Shown: positions 2,435-9,251 of the stretch, piece by piece
Position numbering within the stretch: the first letter of the stretch is position 1
How the letters are laid out: every line of letters begins with the position of its first letter
DNA from: an uncultured Bacteroidota bacterium
GTDB taxonomy: Bacteria; Bacteroidota; Bacteroidia; Flavobacteriales; Flavobacteriaceae
Direction: 5' to 3'
DNA: 22,466 bases
Assembly (NCBI GenBank): GCA_903837025.1
Contig: CAILTC010000314.1
Coordinates: 1 to 22,466 of the forward strand
Notes under the pieces: generated by a model
Told to the model about the DNA's origin: nothing
The model's database searches: none
The model's input: only the letters and a program-made list of their open reading frames with translations
Translations under genes and position numbers: made by a program

Positions 2435-5400
2435 ATGTTATTAACAGTGGAAGCATCAAATTTTATTTATTATAAACTAGAATTTTTTATTAAGAAGTTT
2501 TACACCAATGAATTAATTCGTGGAATAATTTTCTTTATCGGTTTAGGTTTGTTGTATTTCTTGTTAACGCTTTTTGTGGAATATTTTCTTTGGCTTAAGC
2601 CAATGGGAAGAACTTTTTTGTTTTGGTTTTTTGTTGTTGTAGAAGTTTTTCTTTTTCTCCGCTTTATTTTATTTCCAATTTTCCAATTATTAAAATTTAA
2701 AAACGGTATTGATTACAAAGAAGCCTCTGCCATCATTGGGAATCATTTTCCAGAAGTTAGTGATAAGTTGACCAATTTTCTTCAATTATCGAATGATAAA
2801 AATCAATCCGAATTATTATTGGCATCGATTGAACAAAAAGCAAATTCATTGCAGCTTATCCCTTTCAGCAACGCTATTAATTTTAATACGAATCGAAAAT
2901 ATTTGCCTTTGGCAATTATCCCAATTTTATTTTTTATTTTATTTTATGTTTCTGGGAATAGTACAATTATTTCGCAAAGTTTGAATAGGGTAGTGCATTA
3001 CCGTGAACAATTTTTCCCGCCAGCACCTTTTCATTTTGTTGTTTTAAACCCTAATTTGCAAACAGAACAAAACAAAGATTTTAGTATTCGAATTAAAACC
3101 GTAGGTAAAGTGATTCCTGAAAATGCTATGATCTTTATTGGTGACGAAAGTTATTTTATGGAAACAACCCAAGCAGGGGAATTTTACTTTAAATTCGAAA
3201 AACCATCCTGTTCAATTTCATTTCACATAGAATCTAATACAGTATCCTCTCCAGAATATCAGCTGAATGTTATTACTGTTCCTTCTATTGCTGATTTCGA
3301 AATGCAGTTGAATTTCCCCAGCTATTTAAACAAAAAACAGGAGTTAATCAAAGGGAATGGTAACGCTGTTATCCCTGAAGGTACTCGTGTTACCTGGAAA
3401 ATAAATACTCTAGCCACCCAAAACGTAAATTGGATGGATTTGACTTCATTGTCCCCATTTATTAAGTCAAAAAACGAGTTTAGTTTATCAAAACAAATTC
3501 TACAAAATACAGAATATCAAATTCTTACGTCTAATAATAAAATAAAAAATTATGAAAAGTTAAGTTATCAGCTTTCAATAATCAAGGATCAATTCCCTAC
3601 TATTAATGTTATTAATGCACCAGACAGCTTAAAAGTCGATAAAAACTATGTTTTGGGTCAAATTTCTGACGATTATGGGTTATCTAAGCTAATGGTTGTT
3701 TATTATCCAAAGAACAAACCTGAGTCCGTTAAACGTGGAACAATTGCTATTAAGTCTGTCCTTAACGATCATTTCATTTTTGCTTTTCCTAGTTCGCTTC
3801 CAGTAGAACAAGGAGTTTCCTATGAATATTATTTTGAAGTTTTTGATAATGATGCGCTTCATAATTTTAAGTGTTCGAAATCTTCTGTTTTTTCAAATCG
3901 CATTTCGACTAATGAAGAGAAGGAGGATCAAGTTTTACAACAACAAAATAGTACGATTAACAGTTTAGAAAAGTCATTAAAACATCAAGATAAGCAAATT
4001 TCTGATTTAGAAAAACTTCAAAAATCAGGTAAAGAAAAAGACAATCTAGAATTTAAAGACCAACAAAAAATTAATGATTTTATCAGACGTCAAGACTTAC
4101 AAGATAAAATGATGAAGGAATTTGCCGAAAAAATGAAGGATAATCTTGATAAGTTTAAAACAGATAAAAAAGATGAATTCAAAGAAGTTTTAAAAAATCG
4201 GTTGGACAACGTTGATAAGGATTTGGAAAAAAATAAAAAATTTTTAGAAGAACTTAAAGATTTGAATGATAAAATCAAGCAAGAAGATTTGATGTTAAAA
4301 ATGGATAAGTTCAAGCAAAACGCAAAAAATCAAACTAAGAGTTTGGAGCAGTTGGTCGAACTTACAAAGAAATATTATGTTGAGAAAAAAGCAGAACAAC
4401 TCAAAGATAAATTAGATAAACTTTCGGATAAGCAGGACAACTTATCTAACAAAGACAAGGAAAATACTGCTGAAAAGCAAGAGGATATTAATAAGGATTT
4501 CGATAAAATCAAGGAAGCCTTAAAGGATTTGGCAAAGGAAAACAAAGAGCTTAAAAAGCCTTTGGATATACCTAATGACCTTTCTCAACAAAAAAGCATT
4601 GAGGAGGATTTAAAAACAGCCACCGACGATTTGCAAAAAGAGAATAAAGCGAATGCTAAACTAAAACAAAAAAGTGCCTCTAAGAAAATGAAACTTATGG
4701 CTCAGAAAATGAAAAAAAGTATGGATCAAGGGGAAAAGGAACAACTCCAAGAAGATATTACTATGTTACGGCAGGTTCTTGATAACCTTCTTTCTTTTTC
4801 ATTTTCGCAAGAAGATTTAATGGCTAAGTTTAAAACTTTTACTATTGGCTCACCGGCTTTTAATAAGAACTTAAAAACGCAACAAGATTTAAAATTACAG
4901 TTCAAACATATTGATGATAGTTTGTTTGCGATGTCATTGCGAAATCCAAAAATTGGTGAAAACATCACTAAAGAAATAGGGAAAGCACAATATAATTTAG
5001 ATAAATCACTTGAAACCTTATCCGATGCACAAGTCCAAAAAGGAATTTCTCATCAACAATATACGGTTTCATCTTCTAATACATTAGCAAATTTATTAGC
5101 CGAAGTTTTAAATAATTTGCAAATGTCTATGTCTGGTGAAGGAGAAGGAAAACCAAAACCGGGTCAAGGCGAAGGGATGCAGTTATCTGACATTATTAAA
5201 AAACAGCAAGGTTTGGGTGATAAGATGAAACAAGGTTTAGAGAAAGGCAAAAAAACAGGAGAAGGTAAAGAAGAGGATAGAGGTAAACCGGTAAATAAAA
5301 GCGGTTCAAAAGGTGAAAACTGCCAAAATGGTCAGGAGGGAGAAGGGGATGCCAAAGCTTTAATGCAAATTTATAAGGAGCAAAAACAATTACGCGATGC

Positions 5401-5752
5401 GCTACAAAATGAATTAGAGAAACATGGTTTAGAGGGGAATGGTCAAAATGCTCTGGAGCAAATGAAACAAATTGAAAAACAACTATTAAATAAAGGTTTT
5501 AATAATGAATCCCTTCAAAAGATGCTTAATGTAAAACAAGAATTATTGAAGTTAAGTACTGCTTTACAACAACAAGGACAAGAGAATAAAAGGCAATCAG
5601 AAACGAATACTAAGTCTTTTTCTAATCAAGCGAAACCACTTCCACCCGCGTTATTGGAATATTTAAACAGTATAGAAATATTAAATAGACAATCGTTACC
5701 TTTGCACACTTATTTTAATCAAAAAGTTCAAATATATTTTAATAAAAAATGA
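2435..5752 (+). CDS. DUF4175 family large membrane/coiled-coil protein
   Basis: An 1105-residue protein. Three probable membrane helices lie near the N-terminus (about residues 30-52, 60-83 and 156-172). A beta-rich extracytoplasmic segment follows (about 190-490). Next comes a very long Lys/Glu/Asp/Gln-rich coiled-coil region (about 500-800), a Gly/Glu/Lys/Pro low-complexity linker around 905-960 and a further Gln-rich helical tail. This layout matches the Bacteroidota DUF4175 family, whose function is not known to me; an envelope location is inferred from the helices. The ATG at 2435 precedes the first helix by about 30 residues. The stop codon overlaps the ybeY start (ATGA), so the two are very likely cotranscribed and translationally coupled. 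Several antisense ORFs inside the coiled-coil region are composition artefacts. Identity is by architecture and by the DUF4175-ybeY-mnmG gene order I know from Flavobacterium. Confidence 0.8.
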   Translation: MLLTVEASNFIYYKLEFFIKKFYTNELIRGIIFFIGLGLLYFLLTLFVEYFLWLKPMGRTFLFWFFVVVEVFLFLRFILFPIFQLLKFKNGIDYKEASAIIGNHFPEVSDKLTNFLQLSNDKNQSELLLASIEQKANSLQLIPFSNAINFNTNRKYLPLAIIPILFFILFYVSGNSTIISQSLNRVVHYREQFFPPAPFHFVVLNPNLQTEQNKDFSIRIKTVGKVIPENAMIFIGDESYFMETTQAGEFYFKFEKPSCSISFHIESNTVSSPEYQLNVITVPSIADFEMQLNFPSYLNKKQELIKGNGNAVIPEGTRVTWKINTLATQNVNWMDLTSLSPFIKSKNEFSLSKQILQNTEYQILTSNNKIKNYEKLSYQLSIIKDQFPTINVINAPDSLKVDKNYVLGQISDDYGLSKLMVVYYPKNKPESVKRGTIAIKSVLNDHFIFAFPSSLPVEQGVSYEYYFEVFDNDALHNFKCSKSSVFSNRISTNEEKEDQVLQQQNSTINSLEKSLKHQDKQISDLEKLQKSGKEKDNLEFKDQQKINDFIRRQDLQDKMMKEFAEKMKDNLDKFKTDKKDEFKEVLKNRLDNVDKDLEKNKKFLEELKDLNDKIKQEDLMLKMDKFKQNAKNQTKSLEQLVELTKKYYVEKKAEQLKDKLDKLSDKQDNLSNKDKENTAEKQEDINKDFDKIKEALKDLAKENKELKKPLDIPNDLSQQKSIEEDLKTATDDLQKENKANAKLKQKSASKKMKLMAQKMKKSMDQGEKEQLQEDITMLRQVLDNLLSFSFSQEDLMAKFKTFTIGSPAFNKNLKTQQDLKLQFKHIDDSLFAMSLRNPKIGENITKEIGKAQYNLDKSLETLSDAQVQKGISHQQYTVSSSNTLANLLAEVLNNLQMSMSGEGEGKPKPGQGEGMQLSDIIKKQQGLGDKMKQGLEKGKKTGEGKEEDRGKPVNKSGSKGENCQNGQEGEGDAKALMQIYKEQKQLRDALQNELEKHGLEGNGQNALEQMKQIEKQLLNKGFNNESLQKMLNVKQELLKLSTALQQQGQENKRQSETNTKSFSNQAKPLPPALLEYLNSIEILNRQSLPLHTYFNQKVQIYFNKK

Positions 5753-6168
5753 TCAATTTTAATTACGAAACCGAATTTAATTTCGAGAATGAAGAAGCAA
5801 TTACCAATTGGCTTTCTGCTGTTATACTTTCTGAAAACAAGAAAGAAGGTGAGATCAATTACATTTTTTGTGATGACGATTATTTACATAAAATCAATTT
5901 AGAACATCTTGGTCACGATACGTTAACGGATATTATTAGTTTTGATTACACTGTTGGTAACGAATTACACGGAGATGTTTTTGTTTCTGTCGAAAGGGTT
6001 TTAGATAACGCTTTGGATTTTAACGTTTCTTTTAATGAGGAATTAAATCGAGTTTTGGTTCATGGCGTCTTGCATTACTGCGGATACAAGGATAAAACGG
6101 ATACCGACGCCTTTTTAATGAGAAGTAAAGAAGAAGAAAAACTCGCTATGTTTCACGTGGAACAATAG
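5749..6168 (+). CDS. ybeY: Endoribonuclease YbeY, rRNA maturation factor
   Basis: A 139-residue cytoplasmic metalloprotein of the UPF0054 family, which takes part in 16S rRNA 3'-end maturation and ribosome quality control. The conserved core is visible: DIISFDY at 61-67, HGDVFVS at 74-80 and the metal site HGVLHYCGYKD at 105-115. The first two His ligands are H105 and H109. The third position, His in E. coli (HGxLHLxGYDH), is Asp115 here, which I recall as usual for Bacteroidota (GYKDK). The start overlaps the DUF4175 stop by four bases. The last codons, encoding MFHVEQ, lie inside a parS sequence (6149-6164), so the C-terminal residues are shaped by a centromere site. Domain length is normal. 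Confidence 0.93.
   Translation: MINFNYETEFNFENEEAITNWLSAVILSENKKEGEINYIFCDDDYLHKINLEHLGHDTLTDIISFDYTVGNELHGDVFVSVERVLDNALDFNVSFNEELNRVLVHGVLHYCGYKDKTDTDAFLMRSKEEEKLAMFHVEQ
6149..6164. other. parS site 1 (ParB-binding centromere element), inside the ybeY 3' end
   Basis: TGTTTCACGTGGAACA matches the reverse complement of the published B. subtilis-type parS consensus TGTTnCACGTGAAACA at every fixed base. It overlaps the last codons of ybeY. ParB/Spo0J dimers load at such sites and recruit ParA and SMC for chromosome segregation. Function is inferred from sequence identity; parB is not in the window. Confidence 0.85.
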
Positions 6169-6235
6169 AAACTGTATAATTATGATTTCAAATTATATGA
6201 AACATATAACCAATTATAAAGATGTGTTTCTATTA

Positions 6236-6251
6236 TGTTTCACGTGAAACA
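6236..6251. other. parS site 2, perfect palindrome
   Basis: TGTTTCACGTGAAACA is a perfect 16-bp palindrome and an exact match to the parS consensus. It lies in the ybeY-mnmG gap, 87 bases after site 1 (start to start). Confidence 0.9.
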
Positions 6252-6316
6252 AAAGTAAATTCCTCGAGAATTTGTTTTTTTTCAAATCTAAATCTACACT
6301 CTTAAATAAAAATTTT

Positions 6317-6332
6317 TGTTTCACGTGGAACA
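6317..6332. other. parS site 3
   Basis: TGTTTCACGTGGAACA is identical to site 1 and starts 81 bases after site 2, in the ybeY-mnmG gap about 65 bases before the mnmG ATG. It matches the consensus in reverse orientation at every fixed base. Confidence 0.87.
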
Positions 6333-6368
6333 AATGTCTATTTAGACAATGCTTTTCCTTAGATGGGC

Positions 6369-6395
6369 AAAATCTAAAATCTAAAATCTAAAATT
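6369..6395 (+). repeat. Heptamer tandem repeat directly before mnmG
   Basis: AAAATCT occurs three times in tandem (6369-6389), followed by AAAATT up to the ATG at 6396. The tract fills the ribosome-binding region of mnmG, which has no Shine-Dalgarno sequence. A-rich leaders favour translation initiation in Bacteroidota. Slippage would change leader length by seven bases without altering the protein. Confidence 0.6.
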
Positions 6396-8267
6396 ATGTT
6401 TCAAGAAGAATATGATGTTATTGTAGTTGGTGCGGGTCATGCTGGTTGTGAGGCCGCCGCTGCTGCTGCCAATCTTGGTTCCAAAACATTGTTGGTTACA
6501 ATGAGTCTGCAAAACATTGCGCAAATGTCTTGTAATCCTGCTATGGGCGGAATTGCAAAAGGACAAATTGTTCGTGAAATTGATGCGCTTGGTGGTTATT
6601 CAGGAATTGTGTCTGATAAGACGGCTATTCAATTTAAGATGTTGAATAAATCAAAAGGCCCTGCAATGTGGTCGCCAAGAGTTCAAAGTGATCGTATGCG
6701 TTTTGCTGAAGAGTGGAGATTGATGCTCGAAGGAACTCCGAATCTTGATTTTTACCAAGAAATGGTAAAAGGATTGATTATTGTAAATGGTCAAATAAAA
6801 GGAATTCGGACTTCGCTTGGTATCGAAATTAAATCTAAATCGGTTGTGTTGACTAATGGTACTTTTTTAAATGGATTAATTCATATTGGTGAAAAACAAT
6901 TTGGTGGAGGTAGGGCTGGAGAAAGTGCCGCTTATGGAATTACCGAAGATTTAGTTCTTGCAGGTTTTCAATCCGGAAGAATGAAAACGGGGACCCCGCC
7001 AAGAGTAGATGGGCGTTCTTTGGATTATTCGAAAATGAATGAAGAAAAAGGTGATGCTAAGCCTGATAAATTTTCTTATGCAGATATAACGAAACCCTTG
7101 GTTTTTCAAAAATCCTGTCATATGACATATACTTCTCTAGATGTTCATGATATTTTAAGGGAAGGTTTTGATCGTTCACCAATGTTTAATGGAAGAATTA
7201 AAAGTCTTGGACCCAGATATTGTCCCTCTATTGAAGATAAAATTAATCGTTTTGCTGATAAAGAAAGGCATCAATTATTTGTTGAGCCCGAAGGGTGGAA
7301 TACGGTTGAAGTTTATGTAAACGGGTTTTCTACTTCGCTTCCAGAAGATATTCAATTTAAAGCATTGCGTTCTGTTGTGGGCTTCGAAAAAGTAAAATTC
7401 TTTCGTCCAGGTTATGCAATTGAATATGATTATTTTCCGCCAACCCAATTGAAACATACCTTAGAAACTAAATTAGTTGAAGGTTTGTATTTTGCTGGTC
7501 AAATAAACGGAACAACGGGTTATGAAGAAGCGGCTTCTCAGGGTTTGATGGCTGGTATCAATGCTGCGTTAAAAGTTCAAGAAAAAGAACCTTTAATTCT
7601 GAAAAGGGACGAAGCGTATATTGGAGTTTTAATTGATGATTTAATTACCAAAGGAACTGAAGAACCTTATAGAATGTTTACCTCTCGTGCTGAATATAGA
7701 ACTTTATTGCGTCAAGATAATGCTGATTTTAGGTTAACTCCAATGTCATATGAAATTGGACTTGCTTCTGAAAAGCGTTTACGTAGAATGGAACATAAGT
7801 TGAATGAATCCGAAAAGATGGTTTCATTCTTTAAAGAGACTAGTGTTTCTATAGCGGAAGCAAATCCAATATTAGAATCAAAAGACACTGCTTTAATTAC
7901 TCAAGGGGATAAAATGTTTAAGGTTTTTTCTCGTCCACAAATTGAATTAGCAGATATTATTAAATTCGAAAAAGTTGCTGCTTATATTGCAGTAAATAAT
8001 TTAGATCAAGAAATATTAGAACAAGCCGAAATCCAAGTGAAATATTCGGGTTATATCGAAAAGGAAAGAAATAATGCAGATAAATTAACTCGGTTAGAAG
8101 AGGTAAAAATCCCTGAAAACTTTGATTACAATAAAATTAAATCGATGTCTATTGAAGCTCGACAGAAATTGAGCAAAATTCGTCCTGTTACAATTTCACA
8201 AGCTTCGAGAATTAGTGGTGTTTCGCCGAGCGATGTTTCTGTATTGTTGATTTATATGGGAAGATAA
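6396..8267 (+). CDS. mnmG: tRNA uridine-5-carboxymethylaminomethyl modification enzyme MnmG (GidA)
   Basis: A 623-residue FAD enzyme which, with MnmE, installs the 5-(carboxymethyl)aminomethyl group on wobble U34 of certain tRNAs, using FAD and methylene-tetrahydrofolate. The Rossmann FAD motif GAGHAG is at 12-17. Family signatures follow: SCNPAMGG with Cys46, GRMKTGTPPRVD at 194-205 and LGPRYCPSIEDKI with Cys276. The C-terminal MnmE-binding helical region contains QASRISGVSPSDVSVLLIY. Length is normal for the family. The ATG at 6396 puts the FAD motif at the usual distance from the N-terminus. The gene is flanked by parS sites on both sides (6149-6332 and 8335-8350). mnmG is often origin-proximal in bacteria, which fits a ParB loading zone. 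MnmE is not encoded in this window. Confidence 0.97.
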   Translation: MFQEEYDVIVVGAGHAGCEAAAAAANLGSKTLLVTMSLQNIAQMSCNPAMGGIAKGQIVREIDALGGYSGIVSDKTAIQFKMLNKSKGPAMWSPRVQSDRMRFAEEWRLMLEGTPNLDFYQEMVKGLIIVNGQIKGIRTSLGIEIKSKSVVLTNGTFLNGLIHIGEKQFGGGRAGESAAYGITEDLVLAGFQSGRMKTGTPPRVDGRSLDYSKMNEEKGDAKPDKFSYADITKPLVFQKSCHMTYTSLDVHDILREGFDRSPMFNGRIKSLGPRYCPSIEDKINRFADKERHQLFVEPEGWNTVEVYVNGFSTSLPEDIQFKALRSVVGFEKVKFFRPGYAIEYDYFPPTQLKHTLETKLVEGLYFAGQINGTTGYEEAASQGLMAGINAALKVQEKEPLILKRDEAYIGVLIDDLITKGTEEPYRMFTSRAEYRTLLRQDNADFRLTPMSYEIGLASEKRLRRMEHKLNESEKMVSFFKETSVSIAEANPILESKDTALITQGDKMFKVFSRPQIELADIIKFEKVAAYIAVNNLDQEILEQAEIQVKYSGYIEKERNNADKLTRLEEVKIPENFDYNKIKSMSIEARQKLSKIRPVTISQASRISGVSPSDVSVLLIYMGR

Positions 8268-8274
8268 TATTTTT

Positions 8275-8317
8275 GATTAACGATTTTGATTTTATTTTTT
8301 AATCAATATCGTTAATC
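8275..8317. repeat. Long hairpin downstream of mnmG, possible terminator
   Basis: A 17-base arm (8275-8291) pairs with 8301-8317 with one mismatch around a 9-base T-rich loop. It starts 7 bases after the mnmG stop. There is no U-run after the stem, so it is not a canonical intrinsic terminator. It may stabilise the mRNA 3' end or end transcription inefficiently. parS site 4 begins 18 bases further on. Confidence 0.5.
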
Positions 8318-8334
8318 AACAATCTTAAATCAAT

Positions 8335-8350
8335 TGTTCCACGTGAAACT
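8335..8350. other. parS site 4, one mismatch, opposite orientation
   Basis: TGTTCCACGTGAAACT matches TGTTnCACGTGAAACA at all fixed bases except the last. Its variant half is on the left, the reverse of sites 1 and 3. It lies between mnmG and the methyltransferase gene, about 2 kb from the other three sites. Confidence 0.75.
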
Positions 8351-8402
8351 GCTTTGTTAAGGCTTGGCTTTATTGGGAATTTTAAAAATAATAATTTAAT
8401 AA

Positions 8403-9251
8403 ATGGATATTTCAAACAAAAAACATTTTCTCACTGTAAAAGATTATTCTGTTTCTAAAGAAACTTTCGATTTGTATCAAGACGAAACTTTGGATATGCT
8501 AATCACCTATCCACAACCAAGTATAGAAAATCTTGGTAAATATTACGAAAGTGAAGATTATATTTCTCATACGGACAACAAACGATCCTTATTCGAAAAA
8601 TTATATCATTTCATAAAAAACATTGCCTTAAAAAACAAACTTAATTTAATCAATTCTTTACAACCTGAAAAAGGAAAGCTCCTTGATATTGGAGCAGGAA
8701 CAGGTGAGTTTCTATCCGTTGCCAAAAATGATGGTTGGCAAACGATAGGAGTAGAGCCAAGCGAAAAAGCAAAATCAATAGCAATAAATAAAGGTGTTTC
8801 ATTTGTAGAACGAACTACTGAATTAGAAAATAATTCTTTTGATGTGATTTCGATGTGGCATGTTTTAGAACATGTTCCCGATTTAGATACCCAAATTAAG
8901 GAATTGAAACGATTGTTGAAACCATCAGGAACTTTAATAATTGCTGTTCCTAATTTCAAATCATTTGACGCGAAGTATTATGGAAAATTTTGGGCAGCTT
9001 ACGATGTGCCCATTCATTTTTGGCATTTTTCTAAAACATCGATACAATTACTTTTTGAAAAAGAAGAAATGAAATTAGAAAAAGTCATTCCAATGAAATT
9101 TGATTCTTTTTATGTGAGTTTATTATCCGAAAAATATAAATCTGGAAAAATGAATTTCATCAAAGCTTTTTTCATTGGTTTGCAATCGAATTGGATCGCA
9201 AAGAAGAATTTTGAATATTCTTCACACATTTACATCATTAAAAACAGCTAA
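8403..9251 (+). CDS. Class I SAM-dependent methyltransferase (Methyltransf_23-like)
   Basis: A 282-residue soluble protein with a Rossmann-type methyltransferase core. Motif I is LLDIGAGTGEF (93-103), followed by an acidic residue at the end of strand 2 (GVEPS, Glu118). The later motif MWHVLEHVPD (151-160) is typical of the Methyltransf_23/11 clan, and LKPSGTLIIAVPN closes the core. The C-terminal part has aromatic-rich FWHFSKTSIQLLF, seen in relatives acting on small molecules, lipids or cell-surface glycans. The substrate cannot be told. The N-terminal 80 residues could form a recognition subdomain. The gene stands alone, after parS site 4 and before a 246-base gap; no promoter was recognised with confidence. 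Confidence 0.85.
   Translation: MDISNKKHFLTVKDYSVSKETFDLYQDETLDMLITYPQPSIENLGKYYESEDYISHTDNKRSLFEKLYHFIKNIALKNKLNLINSLQPEKGKLLDIGAGTGEFLSVAKNDGWQTIGVEPSEKAKSIAINKGVSFVERTTELENNSFDVISMWHVLEHVPDLDTQIKELKRLLKPSGTLIIAVPNFKSFDAKYYGKFWAAYDVPIHFWHFSKTSIQLLFEKEEMKLEKVIPMKFDSFYVSLLSEKYKSGKMNFIKAFFIGLQSNWIAKKNFEYSSHIYIIKNS

Follow-up and report, generated by a model that had tools for sequence, protein, structure and literature searches.

parS sites are the DNA handles by which newly copied chromosomes are pulled apart, SMC is the usual partner protein of the ParB/parS system, and dnaA is usually taken as the marker of the replication origin. The chromosomal parS consensus is given as TGTTTCAC-GTGAAACA (PMC7383237). 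In a Hi-C study of gut bacteria, the origin was placed by the parS cluster and the GC skew, dnaA was not always located at the origin, and no known condensin was found in two gut Bacteroidetes (PMC10197239). In two Flavobacteriaceae, Mariniflexile litorale (PMC11278836) and Algorimicrobium (PMC12843772), oriC was assigned by Ori-Finder to mnmG. For Mariniflexile litorale, dnaA was reported to be at odds with the GC skew, and in the legend of Figure 3 the label ter is given to mnmG and the label oriC to leuB/dnaA, contrary to the paper's own text (PMC11278836). No link to parS was seen in these two papers, the only 'pars' match in each being 'parsimony' (PMC11278836, PMC12843772); a Tenacibaculum paper contains 'parS' and 'ParB' as word starts (PMC9864904).

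The DNA analysed here, referred to as the window, is a whole stretch of 22,466 bases from an uncultured member of the Flavobacteriaceae, in which a cluster of parS sites had been predicted around mnmG. The corresponding assembly amounts to 3.14 Mb in 665 contigs, with 89% completeness and 4.6% contamination. The genus was taken as Flavobacterium from the best named MnmG matches, which are 91-93% identical among the matches listed.

Candidate parS sites on both sides of mnmG

The complete window was scanned with TGTTNCACGTGNAACA, which revealed three sites with zero mismatches (6149-6164, 6236-6251 and 6317-6332) and a fourth, TGTTCCACGTGAAACT at 8335-8350, corresponding to parS with a single mismatch. 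These results are in agreement with the original prediction of four CACGTG-centred elements of 16 bp matching the parS consensus. CACGTG had been noticed by eye nowhere else, and the full scan agrees: the hexamer occurs four times in the 22,466 bases, always within the four sites. The features of the locus are as follows.

5749..6168, plus strand: ybeY (rRNA maturation RNase), upstream neighbour; TIGR00043 at 99.6 bits for a cut-off of 45
6149..6164, plus strand: putative parS site 1, TGTTTCACGTGGAACA; exact match, encoding the YbeY C-terminal MFHVEQ
6236..6251, no strand assigned: putative parS site 2, the perfect palindrome TGTTTCACGTGAAACA, in the ybeY-mnmG intergenic region; exact match
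6317..6332, plus strand: putative parS site 3, TGTTTCACGTGGAACA, in the ybeY-mnmG intergenic region; exact match
6396..8267, plus strand: mnmG (gidA), lying between the sites, a gene and not a part of the centromere; TIGR00136 at 836.3 bits for a cut-off of 524.85
8335..8350, minus strand: putative parS site 4, downstream member of the bracket; one mismatch, beginning 68 bp past the mnmG end

With up to three mismatches allowed, six matches were found in the window for 0.86 expected, and none of 100 shuffled sequences contained six. CACGTG alone is statistically weaker (four in the window for 1.14 expected; four in 3 of 100 shuffles), so that the significance of the parS match comes from the flanks. 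Upstream of ybeY, the window carries an ORF of 1105 residues (2435-5752) with a weak match to DUF4175, under the cut-off.

In the assembly (89% complete), no CACGTG-core site with at most one mismatch was found beyond the window, and the sole further one-mismatch match has a CACCTG core and is located on another contig (C288:8552). At two mismatches or fewer, 17 matches to parS were counted for 9 to the reversed pattern. An even scatter of sites had been named as an argument against a centromere; the CACGTG-core sites of this assembly are confined to the window, which is the picture of few, clustered copies expected of parS.

Conservation around mnmG in related genomes had been put forward as a check. 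The exact sequence TGTTYCACGTGRAACA was detected in 117 of the 121 genomes of the genus, our own included, and in all 101 genomes of good quality, the reversed control giving none; the four genomes without an exact site are 60-76% complete. Of 80 named loci, the top-ranking ones among at least 592 MnmG matches, 73 contained sites, and all 14 single-contig relatives had sites beside mnmG (for G103, among the matches listed). The 73 loci contain 184 sites, 121 being exact and 63 differing at one position with the CACGTG core intact; 169 of the 184 lie close to mnmG, at most 500 bp before or 200 bp after the gene, and none lies within it. The gene is flanked on both sides in 65 of the 80 loci. 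Similarly, in the 13 single-contig genomes listed in full, 29 of 30 exact sites and 28 of 38 one-mismatch sites adjoin mnmG, with both sides occupied in 12 genomes and one side in G119; the 11 sites away from the gene are close to what the reversed control predicts (9 in 14 genomes).

Seven of the 80 named loci had no CACGTG-core site at one mismatch or fewer; degenerate copies stand beside mnmG in six of them and none in L217. Altered parS sequences, with CACATG or other cores or with changed ends, were seen beside mnmG in L179, L199, L205, L206 and L208, records assigned to Kordia, a Flavobacteriaceae, Tenacibaculum and Polaribacter, and the specificity of ParB may have shifted in organisms of this type. 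Two bins labelled Chitinophaga pinensis (L158) and Limnohabitans (L163) carry an mnmG 91% and 81% identical, respectively, to that of the window and look mislabelled or mixed. In a draw of 392 Bacteroidota genomes, where the exact site was counted regardless of its position relative to mnmG, 292 genomes had the site, 100 did not, and the reversed pattern appeared in two.

Two other explanations of the palindromes were weighed against these data. All four 16-mers are inverted repeats, either full or nearly perfect, as would be the case for chance or repeat-like sequences such as terminators or hairpins. The probability of this explanation is practically negligible: none of the 100 shuffles reproduced the matches, the reversed control was silent in 121 genomes and in 1.59 Mb of named loci, and the single terminator-like match in 5900-8600 is away from every site. 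It is also very improbable that the sites are transcription-factor operators (E-box-like CACGTG) for ybeY-mnmG. Three of them do precede mnmG, and each of the four is overlapped by weak promoter-like matches, but 14 such matches in the region for 10.7 expected (sd 2.9) carry little weight. An operator is hardly compatible with a site at most 200 bp after mnmG, just past its stop, in 65 of the 80 loci, with a number and a spacing of sites that differ widely even between near relatives in these loci, with the near absence of such sites from the rest of the genome or with a match that extends over all 16 bp of the ParB target. Furthermore, site 1 lies within codons, the final ones of the YbeY ORF (5749-6168), which terminates in MFHVEQ; in the 80 named loci, 75 ybeY ORFs were identified by motif, of which 38 overlap parS, 36 of these with an FHV-type tail.

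The spacings of the first three sites, 87 and 81 bases, had been read as nearly whole numbers of helical turns. The two values are correct; with 10.5 bp per turn, they amount to 8.29 and 7.71 turns, which puts adjacent sites roughly 100 degrees out of phase, and only the outer pair is in phase (168 bp, 16.0 turns). The 68 spacings of at most 200 bp that were gathered (35 from named loci, 2 from our own genome and 31 from ten complete relatives, the other four of the 14, G103 included, being outside the set) gave R = 0.13 and p of about 0.30 at 10.5 bp per turn, and p of about 0.07 at 11.0 bp per turn. A helically phased ParB array was therefore rejected, whole-turn spacing being found neither between neighbouring sites of the window nor in this set.

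ParB, ParA and the search for SMC

The parB gene required by the original prediction was found. Profile searches of the assembly revealed one ParB above the curated cut-off, on contig C473, with the Pfam domains ParB_N, HTH_ParB and ParB_C, and the adjoining ORF is ParA-like (Pfam AAA_31). Exactly one ParB above the cut-off was also detected in each of the 14 single-contig relatives, where the distance between parB and mnmG is at least about 0.8 Mb; our own parAB pair is likewise on a different contig from mnmG. GERRLR is present in all 15 ParBs (own and 14 relatives) and presumably represents the CTP motif GERRxR. A pattern of fixed spacing, derived from the contact residues given for Caulobacter in PMC7383237, fits ungapped and recovered the equivalents of Q162, G170, K171, R173, N178, G201 and R204 in 15/15 ParBs; the register is fixed by this spacing and not by the Caulobacter sequence itself. 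Position 172 is K where PMC7383237 gives S, 179 is Y, and 184 is K or R. As judged from its sequence, the protein is predicted to be a cognate ParB with parS-type contact residues.

The sites might instead be the targets of a Noc-like ParB paralogue acting in division or membrane attachment and not of a centromere protein. Residue 184, K or R in 15/15 ParBs, is nearly always K in Noc (PMC7383237), and PDB Noc chains align to the ParB, ranking under several ParB chains. However, R173 and G201 are described as 'absolutely conserved' in ParB, and R and G are the residues encountered here, whereas Noc has Q and R; the NBS consensus has a CCCGGG core whereas that of our sites is CACGTG (PMC7383237). 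A single ParB above the cut-off, in our assembly as in each of the 14 relatives, also argues against a paralogue, and the involvement of a Noc-like protein appears exceedingly improbable.

The cluster had also been proposed to be the SMC recruitment zone of the chromosome, which the results do not bear out. No SMC_prok_B (TIGR02168) match above the cut-off was found in our assembly or in any of the 14 complete relatives, where the best score was 37 bits for a cut-off of 567 (all candidates scored in 12 genomes, 25 of 34 in G058 and 25 of 31 in G076); in control genomes a match was obtained in 14/14, above the cut-off in 10. In the draw of 392 Bacteroidota, with two candidates scored per genome and a per-genome reading from E-values, TIGR02168 was above the cut-off in 314 genomes, all among the 338 outside this order, and no genome among the order's 54 had a best E below 1e-9. 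The SMC gene expected in a genome with an SMC-loading parS of the B. subtilis type was thus not recognised in our assembly, in the 14 relatives or in any of the order's 54 genomes, an absence defined by one model, TIGR02168. The exact parS was present in 49 of the 54 genomes of this order. Several further families of this class (f6, f7, f9-f12) also had low SMC scores. Seven stretches with long ORFs underlying weak SMC matches were inspected, three ORFs from two stretches being scanned with Pfam and the others judged by their first 60 residues. The three scanned ORFs are an SbcC-like ATPase, a neighbouring phosphoesterase, which we take to be SbcD, and a CheB-CheR-PAS protein.

Position of the sites relative to the replication origin

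In the 14 single-contig relatives, dnaA is located about 0.66-1.29 Mb from mnmG and parS (the distance in G119 being calculated from a rounded length). In G096, the dnaA match (C1:1660294-1661687) is interrupted by several stops, perhaps as the result of an assembly error. The comparison of site positions with the GC skew, asked for by the original prediction, was carried out in four relatives (G045, G058, G022 and G042), and an origin at parS fits the skew better than an origin at dnaA in each of them. In G045, G058 and G022, the two-arm skew fit brackets parS and the squared error of a dnaA origin is about two to six times worse; G022 has a weak, noisy skew with an amplitude of 0.033. For G042, the best raw-skew origin (1.19-1.47 Mb) is at least 90 kb beyond parS (1.098 Mb), with fit errors of 0.060 for parS, 0.114 for dnaA and 0.038 for the best position; at the 1.18 Mb sample, its third-codon skew, for minus-strand genes alone, hardly exceeds zero (+0.013). 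Over contiguous runs of 400 kb, the cumulative skew minimum was found 4 kb from the first parS in G058 and at a distance of 16 kb in G045; that of G058 is broad, a position 13 kb further on being almost as low. parS therefore appears origin-proximal in the relatives sampled, from which we infer the origin of our own genome because its assembly is a bin of 665 contigs, 89% complete and with 4.6% contamination.

The skew minima of G058 and G045 fall in AT-rich noncoding DNA with five and three copies of TTATCAACA, respectively, and these candidate DnaA-box clusters are 2 kb (G058) and 16 kb (G045) from parS. In G058, clustering as good as that of the box was not obtained with any of 200 shuffled 9-mers; the G045 cluster is weak, one of 200 shuffled 9-mers doing equally well, and its gene context differs from that of G058. 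The G058 cluster is contained in the noncoding ybeY-gltX gap. Seven of the 80 named loci, belonging to Chryseobacterium, Kaistella, Algoriphagus and Roseivirga, have at least four boxes in 400 bp, between +4.3 and +5.9 kb relative to the start of mnmG, and a fixed position of the boxes relative to mnmG was rejected for the 80 loci overall. The window itself holds seven scattered one-mismatch boxes and no cluster. Elsewhere in our assembly, an AT-rich intergenic region (L233, about 480-1090), 5' of RNase R and beside an rpiB-like gene recognised by eye, resembles the G045 minimum; the region upstream of RNase R was rejected as the origin, being AT-rich with no exact DnaA box. The origin is probably some kilobases from parS, with dnaA about 1 Mb away.

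Proposed role and comparison with described systems

The four elements are very probably the chromosomal parS of a ParABS system, given their match to the consensus, their confinement to the mnmG region, their recurrence in relatives, their proximity to the skew origin and the single ParB, with parS-type residues, encoded beside a ParA-like ORF. What stands of the original prediction is the identity of the sites and, as read from the DNA and its predicted proteins, a probable ParB loading zone near the origin; the helical phasing and the SMC recruitment do not. By analogy with described systems, ParB dimers would load with CTP on the four sites and slide outward to form an origin-proximal partition complex, and such complexes would be drawn apart by the ParA ATPase once the origin is copied. 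Since the searches in the order revealed no canonical SMC, the partition complex probably serves ParA-driven segregation, or works with a condensin unrecognised here, rather than SMC-ScpAB loading. For the order as a whole, we lean towards an arrangement in which parS is locked around mnmG at the origin, dnaA and parB lie elsewhere and SMC is missing, partition being ensured by ParA alone or by an unrecognised condensin, and dnaA being a false marker of the origin.

parS beside mnmG could serve as a sequence landmark of the origin in a group whose assemblies often open at dnaA: among the 14 single-contig relatives, five have a dnaA match beginning at base 25 and a sixth has one beginning at base 127. 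Such a landmark bears on coverage-based estimates of growth rate and on studies of gene position. The retention of parS without canonical SMC also makes the role of ParB without SMC directly testable.

Each element of this arrangement has a precedent. A literature search of limited depth, with the 2007 parS survey of Livny outside its scope, did not show the combination of parS at mnmG, unlinked dnaA and no SMC across Flavobacterium and its order. As in Bacillus subtilis and Caulobacter, parS is here a palindrome of 16 bp present as multiple sites near the skew origin and accompanied by a ParA-ParB pair. Unlike in these bacteria, the sites surround mnmG and are separated from dnaA by about 1 Mb, no canonical SMC was detected in the order, and parAB is on another contig, with parB about 0.8 Mb or more from mnmG in the relatives. 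A probable origin at mnmG is shared with Mariniflexile litorale and Algorimicrobium (PMC11278836, PMC12843772). In comparison with the gut ParABS systems, which belong to other organisms and whose description in sections 19 and 20 of PMC10197239 does not mention mnmG, the lack of any known condensin reported there for two gut Bacteroidetes contrasts with the presence of SMC in most Bacteroidota outside the order studied here, and the pattern described here extends across the relatives of Flavobacterium and is tied to mnmG.
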